From assembly GCA_029226975.1 (NCBI GenBank), contig JAQXZB010000007.1:1-64000 (forward strand): a DNA stretch of 64,000 bases, read 5' to 3'. Both the position numbers and the translations under genes were made by a program. This document shows, in pieces, positions 23,087-47,228 of the stretch (its first letter is position 1; the number at the start of each line of letters is the position of its first letter). The stretch is from Clostridiales bacterium. GTDB taxonomy: Bacteria; Bacillota; Clostridia; UBA1381. The notes under the pieces were generated by a model, which saw only the letters and a list, made by a program, of their open reading frames with translations, searched no databases and was not told where the DNA came from.

Positions 23087-23112
23087 TTTCTTCCTCCAAA
23101 ATTTTTTAGTAT

Positions 23113-23141
23113 ATTATATCATATCCGCAAATGCATTTCAA
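23113..23141 (-). promoter_or_regulatory. promoter of the intracellular lyase operon
   Basis: Minus-strand TTGAAA (23136-23141), 17-bp spacer, perfect TATAAT (23113-23118), about 27 bp upstream of the heparinase-like start. Confidence 0.7.
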
Positions 23142-23166
23142 GCTCTTTATCCATAGGTTCCTGTTG

Positions 23167-23194
23167 AAAAAGGGGATGCCGAAAAACATCCCCT
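23167..23194 (-). terminator. terminator after the 54-aa peptide gene
   Basis: Minus-strand GGGGATG and CATCCCC with an 8-nt loop, followed by five T. It separates the small secreted-protein unit from the lyase operon. Confidence 0.8.
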
Positions 23195-23225
23195 CCGTTG
23201 GCTTAAAAATATTTTTAAATCAATG

Positions 23226-23390
23226 TCACTGCTTAAACGCCGCCATATAATCGATTGACTGAACCGATGTGCCGACCACGCCCGCATCGGCAAGCGCAAG
23301 CTTTGCTTCCTGTATGCCGCTGCTTGTGATGACCTTCTCTTTGGAAAAGCGCGAGATATTCATTGACGGATCCGTATACTGCATTTTCAT
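23226..23390 (-). CDS. 54-residue peptide of unknown function
   Basis: Open from ATG at 23390 (GGGGGT upstream) to TGA at 23226, with the terminator following. No signal peptide or membrane segment. The last ~30 residues (SGIQEAKLALADAGVVG..., ending DYMAAF) line up with the extreme C-terminus of the GH5 protein at 28288 (DGLEDAKDALLNMGVSQSG..., ending DYNSVF), with 11 of 29 identical. It could be a small partner or a detached copy of that tail. It lies 14 bp after the 339-residue secreted protein and shares its transcript. Confidence 0.6.
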   Translation of the reverse strand: MKMQYTDPSMNISRFSKEKVITSSGIQEAKLALADAGVVGTSVQSIDYMAAFKQ

Positions 23391-23404
23391 AATGAATACC
23401 CCCT

Positions 23405-28273: not shown

Positions 28274-28287
28274 TTTTTTCTCCTTTC

Positions 28288-31200
28288 TCAAAATACTGAA
28301 TTATAGTCCGTTATCTGAATACCGCTTTGGGAAACGCCCATATTAAGGAGCGCGTCCTTGGCATCTTCCAGTCCGTCATCTTGTGCAATGCGAAGCTTGT
28401 AAAGGGGCTTCATCTCATTCCAGATAAATATTTTATACTCCGCCGCACCGGATATTGCCGCAAAGGAAGCTCTTCCCTCCTCTGCGGGCTGCTTATAAAC
28501 CTTTGCAAGAGTTTTATCCGCATTATACGCCGCCAAATACAGTTCGTCACCGCTTCTCGCATCACCCGAAAGAGTAAAGCTTATTGTATCTCCCGCTTCT
28601 ATATCCGAAACCGTCCAGCTTCTCGGAGCCGGGGTTGGTGTCGGCGTTGGTGTGGGGGTAGGTGTCGGGGCGGGAGTAGGTGTCGGTGTGGGTGTCGGTT
28701 CGGTCTGAGTTGTTTGGAAACCGAAATTATCCATTTTAAACGCCGCCGCCGAGGTTGACAAATCGGGATATATGCGCACCTGCACAATATCGCCGAGCGG
28801 TGCATTGTTTCCGTTTTCGTCCTTAAAGCTGTCCAATGCTAAGGTATATTCCTTTTGGGCACTTGTATCGAGAGTTACCTCGCTTTTGTATTCTCTGCCG
28901 TACTTATCCGCCAGTACAATTGGCAGTGTAAGGGTTTCATTACAGTATTCGTCCGAATATCCCACACTGTTTTTGCTCTGCCAATAACCACTCACACTCG
29001 GATCGGTCATGAGCCACGCCGTCATTTTAAGATATTCGGCACGGGTAAGATCCCATGATGAGGGCAGTGAGGAATACAGATAAGGAGCGTTGTCCATGGT
29101 ATAGCTCTCCTTAAATATATACTGTATATCGTTGCCGCCGTCATTTATACAGCCCTTTGTGTCCACAATTTTAAAATACTCGTCCTCCGCGGTCGTAAGT
29201 CCGCCGTTTGCAAAGCTCATGCCGGTACCCTCAAAGGTTTCGGTGTAATTGACCTCATCTGTTATCTCGCCGGTCTTTTCAACAGGCATATACGAGAAGG
29301 TCAAATCGTCCACTACAAGCTCCGATGCCTGTGCATCGGACATATATATAACTATCGTGTCCGAGCCGGCAATGGTTTCTTGGCTGTTTTCTATCTTTGT
29401 GTTAAGGGAAAGCTGCGCACTGCTTACGCCCCAGTTTCCCAATGACGCGTCAAGGGTCGCCTGTCCGGTCATAACATCACCGTTATAAAGACAAACCACA
29501 AATTTCGAGGTCTGCGGATAACGCCTTGAGCCGTGGGAAATGGAATTTGCCTTTGTCTTTGCGCTTACCGCAAGCGCCTTGCTCATATCCCAATCCTCCA
29601 AAATCGCTCCGCTTATTTTCACGCTCTGGGCTGAAGTTCCCCAGTAATTATTGATTTTAAGAGCCGCACTGCCGTCATAGCCCGTGCCCTCGCTTATCTG
29701 TGCTGTGAAATACTTCGATTCGCTCTGATCTCCCTGTGCTTCGATTGTCATATCCGTCACATTATTATCAAAATCTGTCACAAAAACGGTCTTATAGTCC
29801 TCATTTGTGTCAATTTCGGGCTTGTTTGTGACATTTATATCATCTACAATAAAGGTTCCCGCGCTGTTTTTCTCGGCTCCGCCGAAGCGTATACCCCTCA
29901 TTCTGCCCGCCTGCATAGGTGCACCGCAGTCTAAGAGATAAAACTCCGATATGGGTATGCGGTATTCTCTAAAGCCCATGCCTTCGAGATGCACTTCCAC
30001 TTCATTTGTGTAGGTTTCATAAACCGGGTCTATTAAAGAAACGCTTATATCCTGTTCCCCGGTTAAGGTCTTTGCATAAAATACCAGCTCCGTACCATAG
30101 GACATATCGTCCTTTATGGCGGGACGGGATTTAAAGAAGTCGGAGGACGCCTGATAATCAACAACCGCTCTTGACATTTGCCCCTCGCCTCTTTTATAGG
30201 TAACGGCATAGCCGTTGGGCGAGCGGTAACCGTCCTGGGTAATTGCCGCGCTCATTTTCTCGTCCTTGGCGCCCTCAAGCACCGACAGCACCGGATAACG
30301 CTTCCAGCTCCACTCCCGCTCAAAGCCGTATTTTGCTTCCCGATACTGATACGCCGCGGTCTTTTCGGGATAATCCTTGGTAAATGAAATATTATCTATC
30401 CAAAATTCATCTTCCAATTTATATCCGGTATTTATTACCATTGAGCTCATCTCGTCCGGGTTTAAAAGCTCATCGCCCAAATCAAAGATATACTGCCGCC
30501 AAGAGCTGTCGCCCTCTTGGGTTATTATCCGCACACCCGTTCCGCCGACGCTTATATCAAGCCTTTGCGACGTTCCCGGAGTTTTTACGCATATGGAGAA
30601 ATATTTAGTGTCCCTCGGCACTCGTATGTCCCCGAAGCTTAATGTGGTGCTTCCGCCCCAAAGTCCGTCCTTTCGGTTATAGGAAATTTTTATTGCATTT
30701 GTCATTTCCCCATCAACGCCCTCGGTTTGCTCTAAGGACGAGTGGAAATATGAGGTTGACGAAGGTCCCTGATAATCCTTCATTCCCGCAAAGGAAACAT
30801 TATCACTGTCAAAAACCGTATATTCGCCCTTGTCGATATAGGTGTATTCGGGTGCGGCAAGGGTTGGATTTTGGCTTTTTTCAAGCTTTACATTATCTAT
30901 GCTAAGCTCTCCGTCCTGTGTTGTCGAGCCTTTAAGGGCAATGGCATAAATGCCCTTTAAAAGACCGTCCGTATTGGGATTGCCCTCAATATTAAGCTCA
31001 TCAACGCCTATGGAGATATGCTGCCCCTCTCCCGAAAGCACAATCTCCTTTGTCCAATATTCTGTATCCGTACAGTAAAAGCCTATACTTATCTTATCTC
31101 CCTCTCTGCCCGAAATATCCATTGAAAGCTTTTGTATACCGTTTAAATCCCATTCAAGCGGCAGATACATCAAAGTCGAATAATCCGCCTTATAGGTCAT

Positions 31201-32430
31201 TTTAAGCGCTCCGTCCGAAACGGCGGTTGTTGTACGGTTTAAGGCATAGCCCCTGAATTTGTCCTCGGTAAAATCGTTTATATACTCTCCCTCTGTATTG
31301 TCCGCCGTTTGCGGGAAGCTTAAAAGATGCTTCTTTATATATGCGCCGTTAAAGACGGTGGTTTTAAAATCCCAGTCTGTTATCATTCTCGGCGTTGATT
31401 TCATATGCAAATTCCATGCGGTATAATTTACGGGCACATCATATCCGCCGTAACCGCCGTCCATCCATTTTATAAGCTGACGCATCCAAATTCCGCTTGT
31501 TGAGGAGGTGTTTCCTGTTACGATACCGTCCGAACCGTCCCAGCCCCATTCCCCGGAAATTACCGGAGCGATTTTCCTCACCTGACCGACATAATAATCC
31601 CAGCTGTCGCGGTTGCCCTTGCCGGGGTATATGTGGGTATCGTAAATGATGCCAAGCCCCGACTTTGACGTATCATTACCGCTGCCGCAGTCCGAAAGCG
31701 CGTAGCCGTTCGCTACTCCCGATATGTCATATGCCCAGTTCTGACCGCCGGCGGCAAGAATATTTTTCGCGCCCGCGTCTCTTATTGCTTCGACAAGCTC
31801 CTGGTGTCCGTAGGCTCTTACCACTTGGCCGTCCTTTGAGATATAACCGCCGTTTCGCCATACCTCCCAGGTATTTGTTTGACTGTCGCTTTCCCATTCG
31901 CCGGATTCCTCGTTGTATTTTTGAGGCTTGATGTCATGAGGCTCGTTTAAAAGCCCGAAAAGCACTGTCGGGTTATTGCCGTATGTTTGGGCAATATCCA
32001 CCCAGAAATTATAGGTTTCTTCAACGGGCATTACATATGTATGGCAGTCCAAAAGCACATACTTCCCTCTTGAAGCGGCAAGGCTTATGAGGTTATCCAC
32101 ATATTCCCTGTACTGCTCCTTTGTAAGTCCGCCGGCCTTGCCCGCAGCTTCAAACTCGCCCTTTGAGCCGTTGTTCCAATACTTGGGCAAAACAGCCACT
32201 CTTATGATATTGGCATTCCATGAATCGAACATTTCTATCGCCGATTCGTAAATATGCTCCGCCATGCCCCAGCCAAGGCTGGGAACGTTCACTCCTCGAA
32301 GCGTTATATCACCGTCCTCCGTTACAAGGCGGTTTCCCTCGACATGAATTTCACTGCTTTTTGCAAGGCTGCTTGCCGGCAGTGCCGCAAGCATCAGTAT
32401 AAGCAAAAATAATCCCGATAGCTTTTTCAT
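28288..32430 (-). CDS. secreted multidomain GH5 endo-beta-glucanase-type enzyme
   Basis: 1380 residues. Signal peptide ~1-22, GH5 barrel ~25-375 with acid/base Glu163 in LLNEPHD and nucleophile Glu294 in VISGEWGW. Then four or more beta-sandwich domains resembling carbohydrate-binding modules (~395-1230), a Pro-Thr linker (coding bases about 28622-28710), a module YLAAYNADKTLAKVYK...SGAAEYKIFIWNEM shared with the esterase, and a short tail ending ITDYNSVF. GH5 cleaves beta-linked backbones such as 1,4-glucan. Several glucan-binding modules point to an insoluble or branched polymer. Stop and RBS of the next gene overlap, so the two are coupled. Confidence 0.9.
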   Translation of the reverse strand: MKKLSGLFLLILMLAALPASSLAKSSEIHVEGNRLVTEDGDITLRGVNVPSLGWGMAEHIYESAIEMFDSWNANIIRVAVLPKYWNNGSKGEFEAAGKAGGLTKEQYREYVDNLISLAASRGKYVLLDCHTYVMPVEETYNFWVDIAQTYGNNPTVLFGLLNEPHDIKPQKYNEESGEWESDSQTNTWEVWRNGGYISKDGQVVRAYGHQELVEAIRDAGAKNILAAGGQNWAYDISGVANGYALSDCGSGNDTSKSGLGIIYDTHIYPGKGNRDSWDYYVGQVRKIAPVISGEWGWDGSDGIVTGNTSSTSGIWMRQLIKWMDGGYGGYDVPVNYTAWNLHMKSTPRMITDWDFKTTVFNGAYIKKHLLSFPQTADNTEGEYINDFTEDKFRGYALNRTTTAVSDGALKMTYKADYSTLMYLPLEWDLNGIQKLSMDISGREGDKISIGFYCTDTEYWTKEIVLSGEGQHISIGVDELNIEGNPNTDGLLKGIYAIALKGSTTQDGELSIDNVKLEKSQNPTLAAPEYTYIDKGEYTVFDSDNVSFAGMKDYQGPSSTSYFHSSLEQTEGVDGEMTNAIKISYNRKDGLWGGSTTLSFGDIRVPRDTKYFSICVKTPGTSQRLDISVGGTGVRIITQEGDSSWRQYIFDLGDELLNPDEMSSMVINTGYKLEDEFWIDNISFTKDYPEKTAAYQYREAKYGFEREWSWKRYPVLSVLEGAKDEKMSAAITQDGYRSPNGYAVTYKRGEGQMSRAVVDYQASSDFFKSRPAIKDDMSYGTELVFYAKTLTGEQDISVSLIDPVYETYTNEVEVHLEGMGFREYRIPISEFYLLDCGAPMQAGRMRGIRFGGAEKNSAGTFIVDDINVTNKPEIDTNEDYKTVFVTDFDNNVTDMTIEAQGDQSESKYFTAQISEGTGYDGSAALKINNYWGTSAQSVKISGAILEDWDMSKALAVSAKTKANSISHGSRRYPQTSKFVVCLYNGDVMTGQATLDASLGNWGVSSAQLSLNTKIENSQETIAGSDTIVIYMSDAQASELVVDDLTFSYMPVEKTGEITDEVNYTETFEGTGMSFANGGLTTAEDEYFKIVDTKGCINDGGNDIQYIFKESYTMDNAPYLYSSLPSSWDLTRAEYLKMTAWLMTDPSVSGYWQSKNSVGYSDEYCNETLTLPIVLADKYGREYKSEVTLDTSAQKEYTLALDSFKDENGNNAPLGDIVQVRIYPDLSTSAAAFKMDNFGFQTTQTEPTPTPTPTPAPTPTPTPTPTPTPAPRSWTVSDIEAGDTISFTLSGDARSGDELYLAAYNADKTLAKVYKQPAEEGRASFAAISGAAEYKIFIWNEMKPLYKLRIAQDDGLEDAKDALLNMGVSQSGIQITDYNSVF

Positions 32431-32510: not shown

Positions 32511-34925
32511 TTATGGCAATGTAACATATACCTCACAAATATCCGAATTTGCGTTTACCACATTCCCCTCTGCGCTCCCGCCGCTGACTTTAAGAGAGCT
32601 TTGACCGGTGCGTTTTACATTTATTTTATACAGTGCGTTTTTGTATTTTCTGTTTACGGTAAATTCCTTTATATCCGAGGGTATGCAAGGCTCAATCCGA
32701 AGCCCGTCAAATTCCGGGCGTATACCGAGAATATATTGGGTTATTGCATAGTAATTCCATGCGGCAGTGCCGGTAAGCCAGGAGTTTTTTGCCTCGCCGG
32801 GTCTTTTTGCGTCCCTGCCCGCAATCATTTGTGCATACACATAAGGCTCTGTGCGGTGAATATCGCAAATATCCTCCAAATATGCCGGCGCGATTTTTCG
32901 GTACAGCGCCCCGGCTCTGTCGCCGTTTCCCAAAACCGTTTCGGCAATCATTATCCAGGGATTGTTGTGACAGAAAATCCCGGCGTTTTCTTTATATCCC
33001 GGCGGATATGAGGAAATCTCTCCAAGCTCGGTATGATACCTTGAATAAGGCGGCTGATTAAGGATTATGCCGTAATCACATTCTAAGTATTTTCTCACGC
33101 TCTCCAGTGCTTTTTTTGCTTTGCCGTCCTCTTTGCCGATACCCGCCATAACACAAAATCCGTTTGACTCTATAAATATTTTCCCCTCGTCACATTCCCT
33201 TGAGCCGACCTTGTTCCCGAAGGCGTCATAGGCTCTTAAAAACCATTCTCCGTCCCAGCCGTATTTGTCAACGGCAGCGGTCATTTTTTCCACATGGGAC
33301 ATAATTTCCTCCGCTCTCTTATCATTGCCCAGTGCCTTGTATAAATCGGCAAACTGCCTGCCTATAAACACGAACATTCCGGCAATAAGCACCGATTCGG
33401 CAACCGCGCCCTCAGCATTGCCGTAGGTCTGAAAGGACTCGTCCGGCTCCGTTGAGAAGCAGTTTAAATTCAGGCAGTCGTTCCAGTCCGCCCGTCCGAT
33501 AAGCGGCAGGGAATGGGGTCCTATATTATTTATAACATGGGCAAAGGAGCGGTCAAGATGTCCCAAAAGGGTATCGGTGTTTTCCGGGTCATTGTCAAAG
33601 GGCACACTTTCATCCAAAATACCGAAATCCCCGGTTTCCTTTATATATGCCATTGTGCCTAAAATAAGCCACAGCGGGTCATCGTTAAAGCCGGAGCCTA
33701 TCTCGTTGTTTCCCCGCTTTGTCAGCGGCTGATACTGATGATAAGCGCTTCCGTCCTCAAACTGCGTTGAAGCAATGTCAATTATTCTCTCCCTCGCCCT
33801 TTCGGGTATCTGATGCACAAAGCCCAAAAGGTCCTGATTTGAGTCCCGAAATCCCATGCCGCGCCCTATGCCGGATTCGTAATAGGACGCACTTCTGGAC
33901 ATATTAAAGGTCACCATGCACTGATACGGATTCCAGATATTCACCATTCTGTCAAGCTTCTCGTCCCCGGTTTTTACGGTAAAGACCGAAAGAAGCCTGT
34001 CCCAGTATTTTTTAAGCTCAAAAAACGCCCTTTCGCATTTTTGGGAAGTGTTGTATTTTTCAATCAGCTCATGGGCAGGGGTCTTGTTTATCACATTTTT
34101 TGCACTGAATTTATCCTCATCTTCGTTTTGCGCATAGCCCAAATTAAATATCAGCTCCCGCTCCTCACCCGGCATAAGGGCAAGGCGTATTTGATGGGAA
34201 GCGATGGGGTACCAGCCCGAAGCCAAAGAATTACCCGCCTTATCCTCATACACCGCCGCCGGAGTGTCAAAGCCGTTAAAGGCGCCCAAGAAGCTGTCGC
34301 GGTCGGTATCAAAGCCGTCAATTTCTGTGTTTACATTATAAAATGCATAATGGTTTCTTCTTTCCCTGTATTCGGTCTTGTGGTATATTGTCGAGCCTTC
34401 AACCTCAACCTCGGCAGTGTTTAAGTTCCGCTGATAGTTAAGCATATCGTCCTGAGCGTTCCAAAGACAAAATTCCACAAAGGAAAACAGACTTATTTCC
34501 TTTTTGACCGCCGATGTATTTTTAACGCATATTCTGTGCAGCTCGCAGCTTCCGTCCACAGGCACAAACGCTGTCTGAGATACTCTTATTCCCCCTCTTT
34601 CGCCGGTGATTTTCGTATAGCCCATGCCATGACGGCATTCATAGAAGTCAAGCTCCTTTTTTACGGGCATAAACGAATGTGTCCAAACATCGCCGCCGTC
34701 ATTTATGTAAAAATACCTGCCGCCGTTATCCGCCGGAACATTATTGTAGCGGTAGCGCAGTATTCTTCTGTGCTTTGCGTCCTTATAGAAGCAGTATCCG
34801 CCGGAGGTGTTCGAGATAAGCGAAAACAATCCGTCCGTTCCCAGATAGTTTATCCAAGGCAGCGGTGTTTTCGGCTCGGTTATCACATATTCCCTGTTTT
34901 TGTCGTCAAAGTATCCGTATTTCAT
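32511..34925 (-). CDS. GH94 cellobiose/cellodextrin phosphorylase family protein
   Basis: 804 residues, no signal peptide, near the ~810 of cellobiose phosphorylases. N-terminal beta domain ([27 protein letters not shown]), then the barrel with [31 protein letters not shown][11 protein letters not shown] and the catalytic-acid motif [10 protein letters not shown], and C-terminal [21 protein letters not shown]. It splits beta-glucosidic disaccharides with phosphate, giving glucose 1-phosphate and saving ATP. This indicates that the backbone of the substrate yields cellobiose-like units inside the cell. Confidence 0.92.
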
Positions 34926-34938: not shown

Positions 34939-36039
34939 TTACCAATATTTTTTCCATTCCGGATTTTCCGCCCTCATAAGCGCCTCGGCAAAGAAGTAAT
35001 CGCCCCAGGTGTTGCACTCGCTTTTGTGTCCGTGCTTTTTGGAGTACATTCCTTCCTTTAATATGCCGTTGCTGTCCATACCCTCGGTAGTGTACGCTTC
35101 GCACAAAGCGCAAAGCATTTTGTCGGCGGCGGCTTTAAAATCACCGCGGGGACGGTGCTTTTCCATTTCCAGTATTCCGCATACGGCAACGGCGGCGGCT
35201 GAGGTGTCGCGCTCCTCACCGCTTCCGTCCGTAAATATCAAATCCCAGTAGGGAACGTAATTTTTCGGCAGATGCGAGATGAAATACTCCGTTACGCCGT
35301 CAAAATATTCAAGCAGTCCCTCGTCGCGGGTATAGGCATAGCACAGGGCAAGCCCGTACACCGCCCATGCCTGACCTCTCGCCCATGCGCTCGTATCTGA
35401 ATATCCCTGATGGGTTTCGCCCCTTAAGGGCAGCTTTGTTTTCGGGTCGAAGAAGAAGGTGTGATGCGTGGAAAAGTCGGGACGTATTATATATTTTACC
35501 GCCGTATTCATGTGATTTACCGCCGCGTCACGATATTTAGTGTCCCCCGTGATCTCGCCTGCCCAGAAAAGCAGCGGGATATTTAAAAGGCAGTCCACAA
35601 TAAACCGACAGCTTTTGGGGTCTTTCATGTCGCCCCATGCCTGAATGAATTTAACATCGGGTCTGTACCTTGCCATAAGCTTATCCGCCGCCCTTATTCC
35701 GTCTTTTTTCGCCGTCTCATCGCCGGTTATTTTATAATCCGCCACAGAGGAAAGCGTGAACAAAAATCCCATATCATGGTGGTCAAGCTCGATATTTTCG
35801 TCAAGCCTTTTTCCAAAAAGCCGCGAATGGTGCTTTGCGCTCTTAAAAATGCTCTCATTCCCCGTCCATTCGTAAGCCAGCCACAAAAGCCCCTCGTAAA
35901 AGCCCGTTGTCCACGAAACATTTTTGAATTTTTTATAAATATAATTTTCGCTCTGCTCCGAGGGGAAGCAGTCATAGAAATAATCAAGAGTTTCCTTTAC
36001 CCTCTTTATCGTAAATTCCCGCGCCTGATGAATGTTCAT
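34939..36039 (-). CDS. GH88 unsaturated glucuronyl hydrolase
   Basis: 366 residues, cytoplasmic, (alpha/alpha)6 barrel. Asp89 (DHHDMGF) and Asp149 (IVDC) correspond to the catalytic pair Asp88/Asp149 known in the Bacillus GL1 enzyme of xanthan/gellan metabolism; [18 protein letters not shown] is the other signature. It hydrates and releases the unsaturated glucuronate that a lyase such as PL8 leaves at the non-reducing end. Sits between GH94 (14 bp away) and the 988-residue surface protein (17 bp), so it is co-expressed with them. Confidence 0.94.
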
Positions 36040-36055: not shown

Positions 36056-39022
36056 TTATTTTGCTCTCTTTACTATTATAAGTTCTCTTTGCTTGCCGCC
36101 CTCGGTATGCATAATTATCCTCGATGCGTCATCTCCCGCGCCGGCTTCGCTTATAAGCTCGTCTTGGGTGGGAACATATACCCTGTCCGCCGCCTCGTCT
36201 ATGCAAAGTACGTTAAAGCCCATAAAATCCGCTATCTCAGTGCTTTGGATCTGACCGTAGGCGGTGTCTATCATGGTTCTTAAAACAAGGTTTGCTCCGT
36301 TTTTATACGCCAGTGTCGCATATACCACTCTGTAGCTTGCGCCGAAGTTATAGCTGCCCTTTGAATCGTATATATGCGGTGTGTTGTGTCCGTTGGCAGA
36401 ATATTTTCCGTCCGATACCGCCAAAAGCGTGTTGTTTAAGGCTGACGGATCCGCACCGCTGCCAAACTCGTTTCCGACCTTTATGTATTCGGGATCGTCC
36501 TCGTCCCTTAGGGAGAACACCTTGACCCAGTCCGCTATCTCGCCCTTTGAATTGGTTACATAGCGTATTATATCCCCGGTTTTTACCGTTGTTGTCACTT
36601 GCTTTCCCTCCGGGCCGTTGTATGCTTTTGTAAGATACACACCCTCTGCCAAATCCGCCCAAATCTCGGAGTTTCCCTGAAATCCCCAAAGCCTTGTCAC
36701 CTGCCTGCCGTCGCTGTCCATTGCCTTTTCAATTTTGGAAACCACCGTAAGCGGTACGGTTTTGTCCAATGTTTCGCTCACGTCAACGGACTTGCTGTAG
36801 ACGATTACACCCGCCACGCGCTCCTCGTTTAAATTATACGCGTCTATGCGGTTTGGCTCAGTGTATTGATCCCCTGTTTCCGGGTAGCTTCTCCAGTCCT
36901 TAAAATACGCAAGATTGCTCTTTATATAATTGTCGCGGTTTCTTATGCGGCCTATATCGTTGGTTACGGGAACAACAAACACCTTTGTGCCGTTATCCAC
37001 CGCCACTGCCGAGCCGTAGTTATTGGAAAATGCCATAAGGTTTCTTAAAAACGTTCCGCCCGCTTTTGCCCCGTCGGTTTTTGAAAAATCCGGGTAGTAG
37101 GTCATGGTTTTTCTTTTAAACAAATCCGCTCCGCCGTTCTCTGCCTCGGCTTCCTTGGGGGTGTCTATATAGGTTATTTCTCCCGCGTCATTGGTCTTAT
37201 ACAAAATCGGCTCTCTTACATACAAAGCGGTTCCGTCATATAAATTCGGATAATTGTAATTGGGGTCAACCGCCTTTTTCGCTTCATGACACTCATATGC
37301 CGCTGTTTCAAGAGCGTACAGTATCTGCGCCGGAGATGAGCAGGAAGTACCGTCCACCGTAACGCGCTTTGCGCTCTTAAAATCGTCAAGCTCGCCCACA
37401 TACGGCAGCATGCGCATAAGTACGCAGTCCTCGCCGTATTCCTCGAAGCCGTCAACGGCGCGGATAAGATACCCGTATTTTATCTCGTCGGGCATTTCCT
37501 CCCTTGCGGCGGCAATGCGGCGCATATAGTCAAGATACACCGTATATTTTTTTCCGGCGCTCATTTTGATATTATCGCCGTTTGTGCTCATGCGGTAGCT
37601 TCTGTCCGCAAATTTGACCCTGCCGGTTTTATAGCCCTCGCCTGAAAGGGACTCAACCTTTGCGCTGTAGGCAAGATTGCTTATTATTATCCTTGTTTTT
37701 TTGCCGCTGCTTGCAACGGAAAGCACCGAATCGGCTGTGATATAATAGCTTTCAACGGGATTTTCGTTCCTGTCGAAAAGCTGTGTATCCGCGCTGTTAA
37801 AATCCACCTCAAGGGTGTAATTTTCCTCGCCGTTAAAGCTGCCGAAAAGCTTGTTTTCGTTTATTGCCGCCCTATTGACTACCATAATATCGTATTTAAA
37901 CACAAATATCACATCATAGCGGTTATCATCGTTGTTGTCAACGGCAGTTATGTAATCGCATTTTTCCAAATCCGCAAAATCAAAGCTTTTGCTCGTCATG
38001 TAATTTAAAACCTCGACCGCGTTGGGGTCAATGCTTATGGATTTATCGTCTCCGTAGCTTATGCGCGAATTTGTGTATTTGTATATGTCCCTGCCCTCAA
38101 TGTCCGCGGTTTTGTTTTCGCCTGTGGGAGCAAGGTATACAAGGGACATATCCTCGCTTTTATAATACGCCTTTACCCTGTATCCCAGTCTTTTTAAATA
38201 ATCCGTTTCGCCGGCGGCAAAATACTGATTATCTATTCTTATATGAGCGCCGGTAAAGGAATTGTCAAGACTGTATTCGCCGGCAGAGCGGACTATGCCC
38301 TTTGTATATTTTATATCCTTAAAATAATCTATCGCCTCTCTTGCGGAGCTTTGATATTGGGCATTGTTTCCTTTATAGGTTTTTTCATAGACCTCAGTTT
38401 CGAGAATACCGTCCATAAGCTGTGCCGCGTCAAGCAGGGTAAGCTTATACGAAGGAGCAGCCGAAAAGGGAGCAAGCTTGTACTGTGACCATACCGCAAG
38501 ATACGCGTTGTCGTCACCGCCCCTGTCCGCGGCAAAAACGCCGTAGCCTAAAGCGTTTACAAGTATTTTTACCCCTTCGATAAATGCTGCCGGCTCATTT
38601 TCGCCGCCCATGTTGATGTGGGGGTACAGTGCGCGTATGGTATTATAAGCGTCCGTCTGCTGCATATTCATCAGTCCGCATACCAAAGCGCACAGCTCGC
38701 CCTCGCTTATATAATCCGTATGCTCGCCCTCTATTTCACCATACCAAATCCCCAAAGCCGTAAGCTTGGCGACCGTTTCGTTGTACGCGGTTTTAAGCCT
38801 TATATACTCCTTGTATTCCAAATCCTCCGTATACGCATTTTCGGGATTGTCCAGTTCATGCTCCGGATGGCTCTGATTGGGGTCTTGCGCACCCTCGGGA
38901 AGCTCCTCCTCGGTACGGTTTCCGTCATCGTCAAAGTTCGGTGCCGCCCATGCCGCGGCAAGCGGCACGGCAAGTATCGATACTGTCAAAAGCACCGCCG
39001 CCAGCTTCTTTAATATTTTCAT
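36056..39022 (-). CDS. large secreted protein, paralogue of the C-terminal half of the next gene
   Basis: 988 residues. Signal peptide to ~27, an acidic linker (~28-65), degenerate SLH-like repeats (~70-220: NETVAKLTALGIWYGEIEG, KILVNALGYGVF), then ~700 residues of a domain I do not recognise. That domain aligns throughout with the C-terminal part of the 1873-residue protein: LGYRVKAYYKSEDMSLVYLAP against LGYEVKAYYSEDDEVLKYVEP, and ends RIIMH...LIIVKRAK against RIIAE...VIIVKRR. No catalytic motif is apparent. Surface scaffold, S-layer-like or glycan-binding roles are all possible. Starts 4 bp after the upstream gene's stop. Confidence 0.78.
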   Translation of the reverse strand: MKILKKLAAVLLTVSILAVPLAAAWAAPNFDDDGNRTEEELPEGAQDPNQSHPEHELDNPENAYTEDLEYKEYIRLKTAYNETVAKLTALGIWYGEIEGEHTDYISEGELCALVCGLMNMQQTDAYNTIRALYPHINMGGENEPAAFIEGVKILVNALGYGVFAADRGGDDNAYLAVWSQYKLAPFSAAPSYKLTLLDAAQLMDGILETEVYEKTYKGNNAQYQSSAREAIDYFKDIKYTKGIVRSAGEYSLDNSFTGAHIRIDNQYFAAGETDYLKRLGYRVKAYYKSEDMSLVYLAPTGENKTADIEGRDIYKYTNSRISYGDDKSISIDPNAVEVLNYMTSKSFDFADLEKCDYITAVDNNDDNRYDVIFVFKYDIMVVNRAAINENKLFGSFNGEENYTLEVDFNSADTQLFDRNENPVESYYITADSVLSVASSGKKTRIIISNLAYSAKVESLSGEGYKTGRVKFADRSYRMSTNGDNIKMSAGKKYTVYLDYMRRIAAAREEMPDEIKYGYLIRAVDGFEEYGEDCVLMRMLPYVGELDDFKSAKRVTVDGTSCSSPAQILYALETAAYECHEAKKAVDPNYNYPNLYDGTALYVREPILYKTNDAGEITYIDTPKEAEAENGGADLFKRKTMTYYPDFSKTDGAKAGGTFLRNLMAFSNNYGSAVAVDNGTKVFVVPVTNDIGRIRNRDNYIKSNLAYFKDWRSYPETGDQYTEPNRIDAYNLNEERVAGVIVYSKSVDVSETLDKTVPLTVVSKIEKAMDSDGRQVTRLWGFQGNSEIWADLAEGVYLTKAYNGPEGKQVTTTVKTGDIIRYVTNSKGEIADWVKVFSLRDEDDPEYIKVGNEFGSGADPSALNNTLLAVSDGKYSANGHNTPHIYDSKGSYNFGASYRVVYATLAYKNGANLVLRTMIDTAYGQIQSTEIADFMGFNVLCIDEAADRVYVPTQDELISEAGAGDDASRIIMHTEGGKQRELIIVKRAK

Positions 39023-39026
39023 GCCG

Positions 39027-42000
39027 CTACCTCCTTTTTACAATTATTACGCAGGACGCCACATCACTGTGTCTTTCTGCAATTATGCGGCTTGCGTTCT
39101 CCTCTCCGGCATACTGTGCGGAAATTATATCCTCCGGTGTGCCGAGCTTTATTTCATCGTTTACTTCGTCTATTATGTACACACGCCTGTTATTAAGCTT
39201 TATATACCTGTCCGCACTGCCCTTGTTGTCCGCAAGAGAGCCGGGATAGGGAGCCATTATAATTGTATTGTTGTGTACCTCCTTGGCATATCCCATTTCC
39301 ATGGAGAACTTAACTCCGGGGAACCATGCGCTGTTGCCGTCTCCCTGCCAGATACGTCCGCACAGCACGTCATCATTACCGTTTTCGGCATTTTTATAAT
39401 AAGCGATAAGGGTATGCTTCGAGCCGTCATACTCCTTTTGACCCTCGCTTTCCATACCTCTGTTTATAATTGCGGGATCGTCGCTATTGTCCAGGTCAAA
39501 AACCTTGTGGTAATCGCATATTTCCTCATTGCCGTTTATGGCGGCTCTTATAATATCACCCTTTGACAGCACGCTTGCAGCGCTTACTCCGCCGCTTGTG
39601 TAATACCGCTCAATCGAGCAGTCCTGCGCCATATTATAATCCCTCTCGATACCGTTATGAAGCACTGTAAGCCGCTTTCTTGTCTCACCGTCAATCAAAA
39701 CATCGCTTATGCTCTTTATTACCATTGCGGTCGAGTTTGCGTTAAGCGCCGAGCCGGCTGACGAGTCTGAGTGAATTACCGCAACTCCGGCGGTCTTGTC
39801 CTCGGACATATTGTATATCTCAACCTTGCTGTGCGTTCCCGAGCCGAGTTTTTCAAAGGGCGTAACGGAATACGCACTTTCGCGCCCCGCCTTTGCCTCA
39901 TCCTCCGGTACGGTTATAATTATCGTATCCGGCGCCATTCTCACATATCCCACATATGCCTTGTAAAGACTGTGATAATAAGACTCCTCAAGGTCATGAT
40001 ACCGGGTAAAATCCGCCGAGCTTGTATAAAGGTCAATATCGTCCACATAAGCGGCGGTTTTTATCTCGTTTATCTCGCCTTGGGCATTGGTCTTAAAGCG
40101 GATAAGCTGATTTACGGAAGACGTGTCAATGTTTGCGTTCTTTAAAACCGCGTCAAGCTCACCCGCTGTGCTTATCCTTTCGCCGTCGGCGCTTGCTTTT
40201 GTGGCGAGCTTTAAGGTCGTTAAAGCCCCCTCGTCTGTATAAAGCTTAATAACCGGCATATCCGAGCCTTCGTCAAGGGCGGTTTTTACCACATAGCCGT
40301 AATTAAAATCCGAGAACTTATGGTTATACAGCACATGAGCAATTTTCCCTCTGTGGCTTAAATAAACCGTAACGCCGTTTCCCGGCGAAAGCTTTTTTAA
40401 GGACCGTAAATCCATATTATCCGCCGCAAAATATTTAGTGTCCCCGACTGTAACAAAGGCTTCGCCGTTCTCCTCTCCCGATGCGCTTATAAGTCCCTCA
40501 TCTCTTTGGCGGGACACATAAATTACATAATTTTCACCTTTAGTGTCCCCCAAAACCGACAGCACATCGTTTACGGCAATATCGCTTATTTTCATTGCAG
40601 CGCCGTTTATGTCATAAACATTAAAAGTCATGTCATGCTCCGGCTTTATGGATTTTTGTCCGTAATAATCATATATTGTGCCGGTATCCGATGAGATTTG
40701 GTTTACAAAATAAACGTCCTCGTCTATTAAGTTTACCGTTTCCCATTTTCCGTCACCGTTGTTATCGGTCAGAATGATTTCCTCCGCGCCCTCGTAATCC
40801 GCAATGTCAAGAACGCTTACATAATTATAGTTTTTCATAAGCCTTGCGCTTTTTGGAATTTCCTCGCTGCGCTTTGATGAGGAGGTTTTATCGGCAAAGT
40901 AATAAATCGCCGAATTTTCAAACCTGTCCGTAAGCGAACCGTCAATATGCAAAACCTTGTTTTTCTCTGTAGGCTCAACGTACTTTAATACCTCGTCATC
41001 TTCGCTGTAATACGCCTTTACCTCATATCCCAGGTATTTGTAAGCCTCCGGGTCGGCGTAGGTATAAAAAACCTTTCCTATTCCCACAGAGTCCGAAGCC
41101 GACATACTGCCCGCATCTGCGGCACGATTGCCTGCGCTCCTTAAAATATCCTTTATCGTCACGATTTTATGGTAGTAATAAATCGCCGATTGGTCGGTCA
41201 TTATGTATTCGGGCGGTGTTTTTGACAAATCCGCCTTTACAATGTCCGCGTCCTTTGCATAATCGATAAGCTTCATCACCATATCGAGGCTCATAGGTGC
41301 GGTTCTGTCCTCCAAGCCCTCACAAAGCAGCTTGTGTTTTACCGCGGCGGCATAGTAATCCTCCACGCCCTCCGCATTCATCACCGCTCCGTAGCCCAAA
41401 GCCTTTACCAAAAGCTCCGCCGCATACTCTGCCGTTACGGGGTCGCCCGGACGAAAAACTCCGTCCTCCGCGCTTATAATGTTCATGCCGTAAAGGAACA
41501 TCACCTCGTTATAATACGCGCTGTTTTGCGGCACGTCCGCAAATACCGCGCTTTCGGATACTGCGTTGTTTTTCATGCCCGCAAACGCCGACATTATTTT
41601 GGCAAACTCGCCCCTGGTTACGGTGTCTGACGCGTTCTTTTTTATGTTCATAAGCCCCAGTGCCGAAAGCTTTTTATACAGCGTGCCGTAGGCTTCAAGC
41701 TCCTCCTTGGCGCTGCCGTTTATATAGGAATAAACATCGTATAAAAGCTTTGCGCTCTGGGCTCTTGTTGCGCTGTCTTTAGGTCTGAAGCTGCCGTCGT
41801 CCATGCCGGAGATAAGCCCCAGGGCATACAGCCCGTACACGCTCTTTTTTGCGTAATCGGAAATATCCCCGTCATCTTCAAATTTACCGGTTCTATCAGG
41901 TACGGATGCGCCCATTTTTCGAAGCGCTCTTGCTATAAGCACAGCCATGTCCTGACGTGTTATTTTTGCACCCACGCCGAATTTATTGTCCTCAATTCCC

Positions 42001-44648
42001 TCGACTATGCCTAAATATGCCGCCGTACTTACATACGGCTCGTACCACTCGCCCTCTGAAACGTCCTCAAATTTGTTCTTTGCTTCCTCAACGGGACTTT
42101 GGGAAAGCGCGCCCATAAGAATTTTTACAAACTGCTCCCTTGTAACCGGCACTTCCGCTCCGAACACGCCCTCGGAAATTCCGTCTATAATATTTAAAAC
42201 ATACAGAGCCTGCACCGAGGAATACGCCCAGTGCGAGGAGGGAACGTCCGAAAATACCGTCTTTTTAAGCGGCTCGCCCGACGGGCTGTTTACCTCGCCG
42301 GAGACAATTATATTCCCCGCTCCGCTGCTGCCGCTTCCGGTTATGCCGGAGGTCTGTACATTTTCGCGCCACGCCGACATTAGCTTGTTAAAGTCCGAAA
42401 ACGCATTTATTGTGTTTTGTGAAACATAGGCTAAAAAGTCTGTTTTCTCGTTTTGGGAAAGTGCGGCGTATTTGTCCGTATCAAAGCCCTTTGATATTCT
42501 CGCCGCGTTATTTTCCATAAGCTCCTTTATTTTTGAATAGTTTGGAACATTGTTTATCGCATATATTAAGCACTCATCCAAAAAGCTCTCGTTTGCCTCC
42601 TCAAGGGTTTGGTATGTACCATTTGAAACCCGCTCCAATACCGCCTTTGCCGAGCCGCTTACATATTCCTTATAATAATCCGCTGAGGTGTCAAAGCCCA
42701 GTATATCGTTATAGCCGTTAAAGAGCAGCAAAAGCACCTCTGCGTCATTTTTGTTTACAAGAGCCAGCGCCGTTTCGCGCTCTATTGCATTTCTTACCTC
42801 GTCTATACATGAAACGTTCTTGTCCGCCTTAACAAGGACCTCGCTCTGCTCAGCCGCGCCAAGTCTTTCCCAAAGCCGGGCAGGTACGGACAGTAGCTTT
42901 TCATATGTTTTGTAAAAGCCGGCTGCCGAGGACGGGGAAAGAGCCTTGTAATCCTTTATACACTCCGCCGTTTCCTCCTCGGAAGCATTGTAGAAGCTGC
43001 GCTCGGTCAGTTCCGCGCCGTAGGAAATTAAAACGCTCATTTCGCCGGTGTTTTTATCGCCCAGAAAAACGCTCTCGCTGATTTTTCCATCCACAGCATT
43101 TGCCGAACGCACACAGATAATTCCGGAAGCGTTTTTAATGATTATAAGTGCCGCGCCGTCATAGGCATCCGCGCTTATATTCAAAGTATCCGTTTCCTGC
43201 GAAAACCTTGCCGAAAGTCCCGAAAGCGCACCACCGCTCGGTACTGCGCCTATTTCCTTATAGGGCAGCTCAAAGGGCGCTGCGATAAGCTCAAAGTCCG
43301 AAAAATCCTTTACAACAAACACCTGAGCGCTTTTGTTTTGGGCGTTTATGTCAAGGGTAAATTCCTTTGTCTGTCCCGCCGCAATGCTCACAGGCGCCGC
43401 GCTTACGCATCCTGCAGGCTCGCCGGTGGTTTTGTCCGTCAATGACACCAAAACTCCCGCGCGCATTTGACCATTACGGCTTTCGTTTATAACGGGAATT
43501 GTCACAGAGGAGGAAATATCGCCTTTTATATCGTCCTTTACCACTCTTATGCCATCGCGGAGTGTAAAGCTTATTTTATAGGTTTTTCTCACCTTGCCCG
43601 ATGCGCTTGTCACTGTGATAAAACCCTGACCCGGCAGGGCTTCGGGTACGGCAAGGGTGTATTTTGCGCCGGAGGTTGGTTGGTTTACGTTGGTTTTTTG
43701 TATTTCGGGAGCTTCGAGATTTACCGTCAAATGCTCCGAAATATCACCCGGCTCAATATATCCGGGCACTGCAACCTCATTTATATCCGCCGACGGGTCA
43801 AAGCCCGAAACCTCGGCTCCGTCCACTGCTATGGATTTTATATTGGCGTTTTCATGATACAGCTCCTCTCCGGCAGAGGGCGGATTTATTGCCGGCTCAT
43901 CCTCGGAGGAACGGTCAAATAGCACCTCGTCTATAATAAGCGGCTCTGTCCAGGGCGTTTCCCATGTGGAGTCATCGGGATTTGCGCCGAAGTAATCCTT
44001 ATAGGGAAACACAAAGGACATTGACTTTACCGAGGTGTAGCTCTCGTCCGAAATACCGTCATACATATTCGTGCCGTTTCCGGTAAAGGCATTGGTCGGA
44101 ATACTTATGTATGCCCACTCGCCGGTATTGGGAAGCTGAAACTTTTTTGAATATTTCTTTTCGCCCCCGGTTGTGTTAAACTTGAAAATCATCTCAAGAG
44201 TACGGCTCTGTGCCGCGCCAAGACCCGTATGGTCAACGGTTTTGGGCGTATATACATACATCGACACAGTCTTTGTATCACGCATAACATCAAGAAGTCT
44301 TGTACTTTGTCCGCCTACGGTTATATCGGAATTTTTAAAATTAAACACATATTCGTTATAGCGCATTGCGGCATTGGCTATTTTAAAGCCGTAATAGGTT
44401 ATCTGCGTTGCCCTGCCGAATTTGCCCTCCACATAGGATTTTGACAAATTGGGCTGCGGGGGAGTTTGGCTTGTGCCGCCGCTGTAGCCCCACATGGAAT
44501 CAAACAGCGAATCGGAGTCCATGCCCAGCTTGTAATTAAACTTCGCCGCACCCTCCTCGGCATACACCGCAGCAGGCATATATATCCCTACGGTCACAAC
44601 CGCCAAAATCAGCGATAAAAGCCGTTTTATATAATTATTCTTGTTCAT
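39027..44648 (-). CDS. 1873-residue surface protein with central SLH repeats and novel C-terminal domain
   Basis: Signal peptide to ~30. Residues ~35-255 form a CBM-like beta-sandwich (KFGRATQITYYGFKIANAAM), ~265-365 a cadherin-like beta-sandwich, ~370-560 further beta structure, ~565-800 a helical region. SLH repeats follow at ~835-1015 (SSHWAYSSVQALYVLNIIDG, TREQFVKILMG, EGEWYEPYVSTAAYLGIVEG, GLYALGLISGMDDGSFRP) and a weaker set to ~1165. The last ~700 residues are the unknown domain shared with the 988-residue neighbour. SLH repeats in mid-protein rather than at an end are unusual. It lies directly behind GH5 and two sugar permeases, so capture of polysaccharide at the surface is a reasonable but unproved role. 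Confidence 0.82.
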   Translation of the reverse strand: MNKNNYIKRLLSLILAVVTVGIYMPAAVYAEEGAAKFNYKLGMDSDSLFDSMWGYSGGTSQTPPQPNLSKSYVEGKFGRATQITYYGFKIANAAMRYNEYVFNFKNSDITVGGQSTRLLDVMRDTKTVSMYVYTPKTVDHTGLGAAQSRTLEMIFKFNTTGGEKKYSKKFQLPNTGEWAYISIPTNAFTGNGTNMYDGISDESYTSVKSMSFVFPYKDYFGANPDDSTWETPWTEPLIIDEVLFDRSSEDEPAINPPSAGEELYHENANIKSIAVDGAEVSGFDPSADINEVAVPGYIEPGDISEHLTVNLEAPEIQKTNVNQPTSGAKYTLAVPEALPGQGFITVTSASGKVRKTYKISFTLRDGIRVVKDDIKGDISSSVTIPVINESRNGQMRAGVLVSLTDKTTGEPAGCVSAAPVSIAAGQTKEFTLDINAQNKSAQVFVVKDFSDFELIAAPFELPYKEIGAVPSGGALSGLSARFSQETDTLNISADAYDGAALIIIKNASGIICVRSANAVDGKISESVFLGDKNTGEMSVLISYGAELTERSFYNASEEETAECIKDYKALSPSSAAGFYKTYEKLLSVPARLWERLGAAEQSEVLVKADKNVSCIDEVRNAIERETALALVNKNDAEVLLLLFNGYNDILGFDTSADYYKEYVSGSAKAVLERVSNGTYQTLEEANESFLDECLIYAINNVPNYSKIKELMENNAARISKGFDTDKYAALSQNEKTDFLAYVSQNTINAFSDFNKLMSAWRENVQTSGITGSGSSGAGNIIVSGEVNSPSGEPLKKTVFSDVPSSHWAYSSVQALYVLNIIDGISEGVFGAEVPVTREQFVKILMGALSQSPVEEAKNKFEDVSEGEWYEPYVSTAAYLGIVEGIEDNKFGVGAKITRQDMAVLIARALRKMGASVPDRTGKFEDDGDISDYAKKSVYGLYALGLISGMDDGSFRPKDSATRAQSAKLLYDVYSYINGSAKEELEAYGTLYKKLSALGLMNIKKNASDTVTRGEFAKIMSAFAGMKNNAVSESAVFADVPQNSAYYNEVMFLYGMNIISAEDGVFRPGDPVTAEYAAELLVKALGYGAVMNAEGVEDYYAAAVKHKLLCEGLEDRTAPMSLDMVMKLIDYAKDADIVKADLSKTPPEYIMTDQSAIYYYHKIVTIKDILRSAGNRAADAGSMSASDSVGIGKVFYTYADPEAYKYLGYEVKAYYSEDDEVLKYVEPTEKNKVLHIDGSLTDRFENSAIYYFADKTSSSKRSEEIPKSARLMKNYNYVSVLDIADYEGAEEIILTDNNGDGKWETVNLIDEDVYFVNQISSDTGTIYDYYGQKSIKPEHDMTFNVYDINGAAMKISDIAVNDVLSVLGDTKGENYVIYVSRQRDEGLISASGEENGEAFVTVGDTKYFAADNMDLRSLKKLSPGNGVTVYLSHRGKIAHVLYNHKFSDFNYGYVVKTALDEGSDMPVIKLYTDEGALTTLKLATKASADGERISTAGELDAVLKNANIDTSSVNQLIRFKTNAQGEINEIKTAAYVDDIDLYTSSADFTRYHDLEESYYHSLYKAYVGYVRMAPDTIIITVPEDEAKAGRESAYSVTPFEKLGSGTHSKVEIYNMSEDKTAGVAVIHSDSSAGSALNANSTAMVIKSISDVLIDGETRKRLTVLHNGIERDYNMAQDCSIERYYTSGGVSAASVLSKGDIIRAAINGNEEICDYHKVFDLDNSDDPAIINRGMESEGQKEYDGSKHTLIAYYKNAENGNDDVLCGRIWQGDGNSAWFPGVKFSMEMGYAKEVHNNTIIMAPYPGSLADNKGSADRYIKLNNRRVYIIDEVNDEIKLGTPEDIISAQYAGEENASRIIAERHSDVASCVIIVKRR

Positions 44649-44675: not shown

Positions 44676-47228
44676 TTATTTAACCGTCAGCTTATACGTC
44701 ATCGGTTCTATTCCGTTACCCGACTCATCTTTTACAGTGACATAGTAAACGCCCTTTTTATCCTTCGGGATATTTAAGGCAAAGTTGGTAAGAGAATAGC
44801 TTCGCCACGGGTAATGGGGATAGGAAACGTAACCGCCGTAGCAGTCGTATTTTGCATTTTTCACATCATCTGTCGGCAGACCCGAAATACTCATTTCACC
44901 CTCAACATGGCGGTCGGTTTTGTTCATAAGATGAATACTTATATGCTCCTCTTTGCCCGCCTCTATTTCAAACTCCTTGGGTATCTGTAATATCACGTTG
45001 TCAGGGTATTTGGTTTGTACGGTGCTTATTTGGGGACTTTCTTTCGGCTCCTTATGAGATGTGTAATCCGCCTTTAGTTCTTCACCCTCGTTGGTAAAGG
45101 CAAAGTCCGAAATAACAACACTGCCGCTGCTTTCCAGGGTCAGATTAAACAGACTTATAAACCTGAGCCGCTGCATATGCAGTATATCGCTCATTCCCAA
45201 ATCGGAAATTCTGAATTTATACTGCTTCCACTCGGTCGAATTAACGTCAAAGGCTATGGTAAAACGTTCCAGCTCACGCTTTTTGAAATTACTTCTCTGT
45301 TCGTTTTTATTGGTACCCTTCTCCTCCTCGAAACGGAGCATAAATTTCTGCTTTGAGCCGTCGCCCTTTGCCCAGAAGGTGAAATAGGTCGCGTCATTTA
45401 TATCCCATGATGCGGGAATTGTTGCTCTTGCCTGCCCGCCGTAGGAATTTTGGGGACAGTTGTAGTAGAACTTAACCGCCGAGCCGCCGCTGTGTGAGGG
45501 AACGTTTTGGGAAACATATGTAAAGGAGTCGCCGACGCTGTTTTCATCGTCCTCCCATGCGTTCCATGTCATTTTGTCCTTTTGGGTCTTGTCGCTTACG
45601 GTAAAGACCTCTTTTTCCTCATAGGGCAGACCGCCTATTGTAATATTATCCACCGAAAAACTTCCTCTGCCCTCCTCTAAGGAAGTAAACATTACCGACT
45701 CAATCATGTCTGTGTCCAAAAGTCCCGTATTGCCCTTAAACACATCAAGGGGCAGGTAATAGTTTTTCCAGTTCGTATGCAAATCAAGCGGCATATATGT
45801 TGTAAACTGTCTGCCGTCCTTAAGCTCTATGCCTATTCCTATTTTGCGCATATCTCCGTCGCCTTTAACGTCAAAGGCAAGCCATGACGCACCGCTAAGA
45901 TCCCAATCAAGCTTTGCCGATGCGGCACTGTCCCAGAAATCTCCCTCCTCGTCATGGGCGCTTCTGTCAAAGGCAACAAGCAGTCCGCCGCTTTCGTCTT
46001 TGCCGTAATTTCCACTCTCGCAGCGCACCTCATCTCCGTAAACCTTAAAATCCGCCGCCGTATCGTCAAAATCAACCGTCCTCTCCCATGTGGACAGGGG
46101 CGAGGGGTCCTCATAGCTTCTGTACCGTTCCTCGGGACGGGTTTCGGGGTTGTGAAGCAGACGGTATTTCATATACTGCCCGGAGTATTTTGTCGGGTAA
46201 AAGGTTTCATAATCAATAAACATCGCCGGATTTGCACCTATATGAAAGGACCAGCAGGTGTAGTTAAGCTCATTTCTTTCTATATAATCATGTATTTCGT
46301 TCATCCATACATGGGGGTATTCGCATATGTAATTATCGTACCAGTCAAAAAGCCGCTCACCCCAGTGTCCGTATTCGCCCACAAGAATGGGAACATCATC
46401 AACAACGCAGTCTAACGCCTTTTCCACCGGATTGTACTCCGGCTTCATGGGGTAAATATGGGTATCGTAAATTATACCGTTGCCCTCCATGCCCTTTGGC
46501 TCCTCAAGGCGGTAGCCATGCTCAAGCCCGTCATAGCCGTCCTCTATTCCGTTTAAGTAATACGCCCAGTCCAGACCTCCGGCAATAACGATATTCCTTG
46601 CGCCAAAGCTCCTTATCATATCGAGTATCTGCTGATGTCCCCAGATTTTTATGGTCTTTTCGCCGTAGGCATCCGAGGTCTGAAGCGTGCCGCCGTTTTT
46701 CCACTGATCCCATGAAATATCATGGGGCTCGTTTAAAAGTCCGAATATTACGCCGGGATTGTTCTTATAAATCTGCACCGCGTCCTCCCAAAAACGCTTG
46801 TTCTGGTCGGTTATGGCGTAAAATTCATGAAGATTTAAAATAACATACTTGCCCCGCGAGGTCACCTGCTGTATTATATCGTCAACCTTTCGTCTGTAAT
46901 CGCTGTAGTTGCCGTTTTGGTACCATTCCTGACCGAACCAGAATTTCGAGTGAACGCACAGCCTTACACAGTTGGCGTTCCACTGGTCGAGAAGTATTCC
47001 CAAACGTCTGTTAAGGTCGTTGTCACCGCCGGTTGCCCACTGCAGGTCGGGGATATTCGCACCCATAAGCCGAACCCGCTCACCCTCGGCATTTACTATA
47101 TATCGTCCCTCAACATGAAGCTCCGAGGGTGTCTGATTTTTAAAGTCGCTACCCGAGGATACCGCCGCCGAGGCGCCTAAACCCAAAACCAGGGACAGCG
47201 ACAGCAAAAAAGCAAAAAGTTTTTTCAT
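44676..47228 (-). CDS. secreted GH5 enzyme with C-terminal binding domains
   Basis: 850 residues. Signal peptide ~1-21; GH5 barrel ~35-370 with Glu167 in GLLNEPHD and Glu285 in ILVGEYGHWG; then two CBM-like beta-sandwiches (~385-545 and ~550-730) and a C-terminal Ig-like domain (~750-850). The catalytic part is a clear paralogue of the GH5 at 28288 (ELHVEGRYIV and VRLMGANIP against EIHVEGNRLV and ITLRGVNVP), but without its long module array. Third gene of the main operon, right after the permeases, so probably an endo-acting enzyme that supplies them. Confidence 0.9.
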   Translation of the reverse strand: MKKLFAFLLSLSLVLGLGASAAVSSGSDFKNQTPSELHVEGRYIVNAEGERVRLMGANIPDLQWATGGDNDLNRRLGILLDQWNANCVRLCVHSKFWFGQEWYQNGNYSDYRRKVDDIIQQVTSRGKYVILNLHEFYAITDQNKRFWEDAVQIYKNNPGVIFGLLNEPHDISWDQWKNGGTLQTSDAYGEKTIKIWGHQQILDMIRSFGARNIVIAGGLDWAYYLNGIEDGYDGLEHGYRLEEPKGMEGNGIIYDTHIYPMKPEYNPVEKALDCVVDDVPILVGEYGHWGERLFDWYDNYICEYPHVWMNEIHDYIERNELNYTCWSFHIGANPAMFIDYETFYPTKYSGQYMKYRLLHNPETRPEERYRSYEDPSPLSTWERTVDFDDTAADFKVYGDEVRCESGNYGKDESGGLLVAFDRSAHDEEGDFWDSAASAKLDWDLSGASWLAFDVKGDGDMRKIGIGIELKDGRQFTTYMPLDLHTNWKNYYLPLDVFKGNTGLLDTDMIESVMFTSLEEGRGSFSVDNITIGGLPYEEKEVFTVSDKTQKDKMTWNAWEDDENSVGDSFTYVSQNVPSHSGGSAVKFYYNCPQNSYGGQARATIPASWDINDATYFTFWAKGDGSKQKFMLRFEEEKGTNKNEQRSNFKKRELERFTIAFDVNSTEWKQYKFRISDLGMSDILHMQRLRFISLFNLTLESSGSVVISDFAFTNEGEELKADYTSHKEPKESPQISTVQTKYPDNVILQIPKEFEIEAGKEEHISIHLMNKTDRHVEGEMSISGLPTDDVKNAKYDCYGGYVSYPHYPWRSYSLTNFALNIPKDKKGVYYVTVKDESGNGIEPMTYKLTVK

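Follow-up and report, generated by a model that had tools for sequence, protein, structure and literature searches.

The window, a stretch of 64,000 nucleotides from a Clostridiales bacterium, encodes two giant proteins, P0002 (1873 aa) and P0001 (988 aa), which we interpret with moderate confidence as members of an undescribed surface system of the Clostridia, in which non-enzymatic, wall-anchored proteins of two types, A and B, would serve one glycan per locus. According to this proposal, A would be fixed to the wall via its C-terminal SLH trimer, with a pyruvylated secondary wall polymer as the presumed ligand, and its Ig-like, helical, and sometimes carbohydrate-binding modules would point outward. 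B would sit beside A, held there by an SLH-like trimer at its own N-terminus, and would expose a beta-rich domain of ~650–700 aa, strongly variable between loci. Every polysaccharide operon would have its own A-B pair, which would collect at the wall, beside the ABC importer of the operon, the glycan of the locus, fragments of this glycan, and perhaps also the secreted enzymes. The version in the window would consist of a fused A-B chain (P0002) and an extra B (P0001). The architecture, the pairing, the link to glycan loci, the co-inheritance, and the lack of an enzyme signature come from the computations described below, whereas the binding of a ligand, the contact of A with B, the docking of enzymes, and the substrate are inferred. 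Much less is understood about how polysaccharides are held at the surface of Gram-positive gut bacteria than about the Sus systems of Bacteroides, in which SusD/SGBP proteins gather glycans at the surface. The A-B pair could provide a handle on which glycan each locus serves and on how the wall coat contributes.

The genes of the two proteins lie on the same strand, with 4 bp between them (Table 1). As the initial annotation had claimed, the proteins align in their C-terminal parts (BLASTP: 25% identity over 967 columns, E = 5e-41, residues 79–986 of P0001 against 986–1872 of P0002), and the shared motifs that it had named were found in the forms LGYRVKAYY/LGYEVKAYY and as an IIVKRAK/IIVKRR end. 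The unknown domain of ~700 aa that it had described is real, and is called “B” here, but the homology begins ahead of this domain. When Pfam was searched with a threshold of E ≤ 0.1, no family was assigned to P0001 and only SLH was assigned to P0002, and neither protein showed homology to SusD. The B domain had no match among the NCBIfam or PDB profiles, the profile of the shared domain matched no PDB chain, and single B members gave only scattered weak matches in Pfam. A search for related loci with P0001 alone as the query also returned no match. The statement that no enzyme motif is visible was borne out, in that Pfam, PDB-profile, and fold searches detected no enzyme signature.

Table 1. 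Features of the P0002/P0001 locus in the window (residue numbers refer to the respective protein; L053, L054, and L055 are orthologous loci in relatives).
Feature	Position	Strand	Basis and remarks
PL8 lyase	19875-21464	-	Pfam; perhaps separate transcript
Heparinase II/III-like protein	21461-23086	-	Pfam; perhaps separate transcript
Secreted SASA-type esterase	24590..28291	-	Same C-terminal ~90-aa module as in second GH5, at 24593-24832
Second secreted GH5	28288..32430	-	C-terminal ~90-aa module at 28390-28626
GH94 phosphorylase	32511..34925	-	Pfam E 2.8e-173; conserved position
GH88 unsaturated glucuronyl hydrolase	34939..36039	-	Pfam E 9.1e-25; conserved position
P0001, 988 aa: second B protein	36056..39022	-	Alignment to P0002, profile
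P0001 ~80-236: degenerate SLH-like trimer	38315..38785	-	Foldseek, SpaA-SLH 6cwn
P0001 237-985: B domain	36068..38314	-	B profile (built partly from P0001 and P0002 themselves), 607 bits
P0002, 1873 aa: A and B fused in one chain	39027..44648	-	Orthologues of 1868-1898 aa in L053, L054, L055
P0002 ~36-250: beta-rich N-terminal module	43899..44543	-	Weak likeness to CBM11
P0002 ~264-365: Ig/cadherin-like beta-sandwich	43554..43859	-	Model, Ig/FN3-type matches; no Pfam match
P0002 ~470-770: Ig-like and helical region	42339..43241	-	Model: strands then helices
P0002 796-976: SLH trimer	41721..42263	-	Pfam SLH E 8.9e-40, four stretches
P0002 987-1161: second, degenerate SLH-like trimer, start of B half	41166..41690	-	Family profile matches Sap/SpaA SLH
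P0002 1162-1871: B domain	39036..41165	-	B profile (built partly from P0001 and P0002 themselves), 628 bits, E 5.9e-189
Secreted GH5 with CBM11-like modules	44676..47228	-	Pfam; kept in L053, L055
Two ABC permease-like genes	47245-48129, 48144-49073	-	Sequence; same place in L053, L055

P0002 has the order of an A protein followed by that of a B protein in one chain, and P0001 is B alone. The SLH repeats had been placed in the middle of the larger protein; a full trimer was indeed found there (232 bits against the SLH profile of the A proteins of this genome), but a second, degenerate trimer follows it, and SLH is not confined to the larger protein, because P0001 also bears an N-terminal SLH-like trimer that is degenerate in sequence. 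The model of P0001 resembled the SLH structure of SpaA (6cwn; Foldseek probability 1.00, TMt 0.50), without a Pfam SLH match, and as this part is degenerate, its binding to the wall polymer may be doubtful. On the N-terminal side of P0002, which had been described as CBM-like and cadherin-like, the model is Ig/cadherin-like as claimed, but the CBM likeness is weak: residues ~36–250 aligned with the CBM11-like regions of the same operon over 47 columns with E = 4.6e-4 and a probability of 33% (hhalign), which is suggestive only. Residues ~470–770 are the counterpart of a region of the A proteins, and the order of the parts is as in those proteins. Both N-termini are signal peptide-like. The structure models were calculated with 6 and 3 sequences as input and had a pLDDT of ~60; structure prediction, proposed earlier as a check, matched the N-terminus of P0001 to an SLH structure but gave no confident fold for its B domain, which had no significant Foldseek match beyond the SLH part in that model (pLDDT 60).

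A profile constructed from 14 B copies identified 20 B genes in this genome. It matched 60 of 61 relatives, in which each of the 27 genera sampled in the order was represented, and B was found in 101 of the 391 genomes sampled across the class, whereas only a few partial matches occurred beyond the class. The initial annotation had named a profile search for homologues and their gene neighborhoods as a check, and in these genomes the paired copies lie in glycan loci, as described below. B is present in about a quarter of the class genomes sampled, and the recurring pair could serve as a marker to find and sort glycan loci in uncultured Clostridia. The typical B protein is ~850–950 aa long and consists of an N-terminal SLH-like trimer and the B domain, and the full-length B profile matched the SLH structures of Sap and SpaA with E = 4e-14.

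The A proteins contain Ig/CBM-like and helical parts, a Gly-rich linker, and a C-terminal SLH trimer. They are typically 540–600 aa long, with extended forms of 835–1572 aa, some of which include modules of the CBM4_9, laminin-G, or F5/8C type, in several cases with scores under the Pfam curated cut-off. B usually lies directly downstream of A: a separate A gene was located upstream of 14 of the 20 B genes of this genome, with two more fused, and upstream of 18 of the 37 scored B copies sampled from other genomes. The gap between A and B was −20 to 44 bp in 38 of the 39 collected pairs. A separate A-B fusion was found as a 1428-aa ORF on contig C114. The earlier suggestion of paired surface proteins was thus correct as to a true, wall-anchored pair type, but the basic unit is A then B, and not two B proteins.

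We also analyzed whether A and B diverge together. Across the 39 pairs, the distances between A proteins and those between B proteins were correlated, with r = 0.64 for the SLH part of A and r = 0.75 for its helical part, and r was 0.45 (SLH) and 0.38 (helical part) after the close pairs were removed (permutation p = 0.0005 each). Within this genome alone, the correlation was not significant, with r = 0.22 (p = 0.07) for the SLH part and r = 0.00 for the helical part. When B proteins of different genomes were close, A was also close in six of six cases and the other genes of the locus matched. Families f1 and f13 share eight neighboring genes in the same order with 63–85% identity, and A and B are kept together where whole loci recur in other families.

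The neighborhoods were compared by tallying the 25 commonest families near each group of genes, with the window locus and its orthologues left out of the tallies for paired B. The same-strand neighbors, which include those of a few unpaired B genes, comprised sugar SBPs, permeases, GH10, GH38, GH65, GH130, and trehalase (GH37) in this genome, and GH39, GH20, heparinase II/III, CBM9, and F5/8C in other genomes. In 18 further paired loci, for which both strands were counted, GH42, GH88, GH43, GH32, GH106, GH38, and GH130 were found, together with heparinase II/III, CBM4_9, and CBM9. These tallies indicate that the tie to carbohydrate loci, claimed for the window, holds also for copies far from it. 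Near the B genes without a partner (solo B), also counted on both strands, the commonest families were housekeeping ones (SMC, ABC ATPases, sigma factors, and SRP), and no glycoside hydrolase or solute-binding family was among the 25 commonest. Random ORFs of this genome were likewise mostly housekeeping genes, without glycan enrichment among the commonest families, although rarer families may exist in these controls. Homologues without a carbohydrate link, which the initial annotation would have counted against its proposal, do exist in the solo clade, whereas the paired copies keep the link. Because this one clade is solo and lies in housekeeping surroundings, we do not regard B as a domain that is glycan-specific in itself.

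In a tree of 70 B domains, the solo copies formed a clade (n = 20, SH-aLRT 100) apart from the paired copies. Its branches were mostly short, indicating slow evolution, and broadly tracked taxonomy, whereas the paired copies had long branches and occurred many times per genome. When the labels paired, solo, and window-type were mapped on the tree, 5 changes were required, compared with 25 when they were shuffled. The B domains of P0001 and P0002 and their orthologues formed their own clade (95), which joined the solo side weakly (73), and the deep joins are unsure because this was a quick tree with long branches. The solo clade provides an ancestor-like form with which paired B can be compared. 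In family f19 (L113, L117, L132, and L134), the solo B gene is divergent from a gene for an N-terminal-SLH protein of ~610–630 aa, and the two are possibly a housekeeping S-layer gene pair.

Secreted enzymes of many loci carry an Ig-like C-terminal module of ~90 aa with the pattern LI.A.Yn..g.L ... vk.FvWd.l..m.Pl, for which the copies in the window proteins gave no Pfam match. Among large proteins without SLH, 21 of the 59 encoded in paired loci ended in this module, against 0 of 52 in solo loci. Among the 391 genomes, it occurred in 91 of the 101 with B, and B was present in 78 of the 80 genomes that had at least five copies of the module (Fisher p very small, but calculated without regard to shared ancestry). 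Such counts would be expected if A-B were a docking scaffold that holds SLH-less secreted enzymes via the module in a wall-bound complex, similar to a cellulosome in role but built of unrelated parts. We nevertheless regard this explanation as rather doubtful: the co-occurrence is confounded by ancestry, and the module was also detected on 5 ORFs of control contigs and internally in some A proteins, and may thus have a generic function at the surface or in binding. Furthermore, neither cohesin nor dockerin families turned up in P0001, in P0002, or in the eight A proteins searched. The module may mediate docking on A or B, or these bacteria may simply use it as one more surface module.

It is also conceivable, but in our judgment unlikely, that A and B are structural subunits of the S-layer, whose locus-specific isoforms, exchanged according to the glycan on which the cell is growing, alter the porosity of the coat without specific glycan binding. 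Their SLH trimers and beta-rich modular regions are consistent with such subunits, as are the resemblance of the slow-evolving solo clade to a general wall protein and an N-terminal model of P0002 whose many Ig-type matches include S-layer proteins. The SLH trimers are also homologous, by profile and model, to those of the S-layer proteins Sap (Bacillus anthracis) and SpaA (Paenibacillus alvei). A-B differs from these proteins in that no homologue of the B domain could be detected in PDB sequences, and in being paired and multi-copy in glycan operons. The strong divergence of the paired copies, their inheritance with specific enzymes, and the carbohydrate-binding-type modules of A argue for ligand specificity rather than a purely structural role.

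The enzyme-rich operons, the size of the B domain, and the lack of a match to a known fold might suggest that B is an unrecognized glycoside hydrolase, lyase, or esterase, but we consider this improbable. The best-conserved columns of the 70 B domains were mostly Gly, Tyr, Asn, and turn Asp; the conserved Asp and Asn positions, including Asn340, Asp498, Asp817, and Asp942 (P0001 numbering), are in turn-like motifs, and no His or Cys was conserved across the 70 domains. Neither a catalytic-domain profile nor a catalytic-residue pattern of a known glycoside hydrolase or lyase family was found in B, no enzyme fold matched, and the solo clade extends beyond glycan loci. The calcium-loop motif DxNxDG was rejected as a B-wide trait, because it occurred in only 32 of the 70 sequences.

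The genome encodes three PS_pyruv_trans (CsaB-type ketal pyruvyltransferase) genes over the cut-off and, at 98% completeness, gave no match to Omp85/BamA (PF01103), a search for which the control was positive in 7 of 14 genomes. On the basis of these gene contents, the host is most likely a monoderm with an SLH-type wall. With at least 150 SLH matches scored in its 2.8-Mb genome, it is very rich in proteins of this kind. The idea that B is of the OmpM type, i.e., SLH followed by the outer-membrane beta-barrel porin of a diderm Firmicute, was prompted by the shared order of an N-terminal SLH part and a beta-rich C-terminal part (PMC10628300) and by a match of the SLH part of the B profile to OmpM-type chains (E ~1e-7), but it is barely credible and was dropped, because the genome lacks Omp85, the alignment was confined to the SLH part, and no porin was among the fold matches listed.

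Comparison with known systems suggests that A-B, anchored to the wall, corresponds in role to the SusC/SusD pairs with which Bacteroides capture sugars. Like SusC/SusD and SGBP of the Bacteroidota, it is a recurrent, adjacent surface pair with many divergent copies per genome, with one pair per glycan locus that moves with enzyme and transport genes. Unlike them, it has an SLH wall anchor and ABC importers, shares no sequence homology with them, and occurs in a host without a TonB-dependent channel and most likely without an outer membrane. In the SLH-anchored enzymes and cellulosome anchors of Clostridia and Paenibacillus, SLH likewise holds carbohydrate degradation at the cell surface, but A and B have no recognized catalytic, cohesin, or dockerin domain. 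The B domain and the A-B pair had no description in Pfam, NCBIfam, the PDB, or the open-access papers searched, and an open-access literature search on Monoglobus SLH proteins and on SLH pairs in the glycan loci of Gram-positive bacteria likewise yielded none. What is already known is the SLH part. We regard A and B as SLH surface proteins whose genomic organization is Sus-like, with a real chance that they are more than that. More tentatively, Clostridia with SLH-type walls might possess a modular counterpart of SusC/SusD, with a horizontally mobile A-B pair for each polysaccharide, derived from a housekeeping solo B, and a matching enzyme docking module. If this is true, the wall coat itself would be an organelle for glycan capture and enzyme assembly.

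The neighbors assigned to the two genes in the initial annotation, GH5 upstream and GH88 and GH94 downstream, were correct according to Pfam. Two relatives of the same family have the tandem together with the operon (permeases, GH5, P0002, P0001, GH88, and GH94), and in a third the tandem and GH88 are present before the contig ends. Two of the relatives with the orthologous tandem are rabbit-gut MAGs of uncultured Clostridia. In L053 (968-3184) and L055 (1426-3678), a CBM11/SGBP-B-like secreted protein is encoded upstream of the permeases, and none was seen there in the window. The enzymes resemble those of the R.UCG13 xanthan locus (Ostrowski et al., 2022, as reviewed in PMC10881899), which is reported to contain PL8, two GH5, GH88, GH94, two GH38, two esterases, ABC genes, and CBM11. 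GH5, PL8, GH88, GH94, esterase, ABC genes, and CBM11 modules were found in the window, but GH38 was not seen in it, and A-B type proteins go unmentioned in the review. By analogy, the window locus perhaps serves an acidic beta-glucan, which may be xanthan-like; this is a guess only, because the close enzyme match lacks GH38. The PL8 and heparinase II/III-like proteins (19875-24424 region) look cytoplasmic, with no obvious signal peptide. The same strand of this region also encodes a 339-aa secreted protein without a Pfam match, and the gene group lies upstream of an FAD oxidoreductase on that strand. Beyond the locus, positions 4677-5723 of the window encode a protein of 348 aa whose C-terminal end carries SLH repeats.
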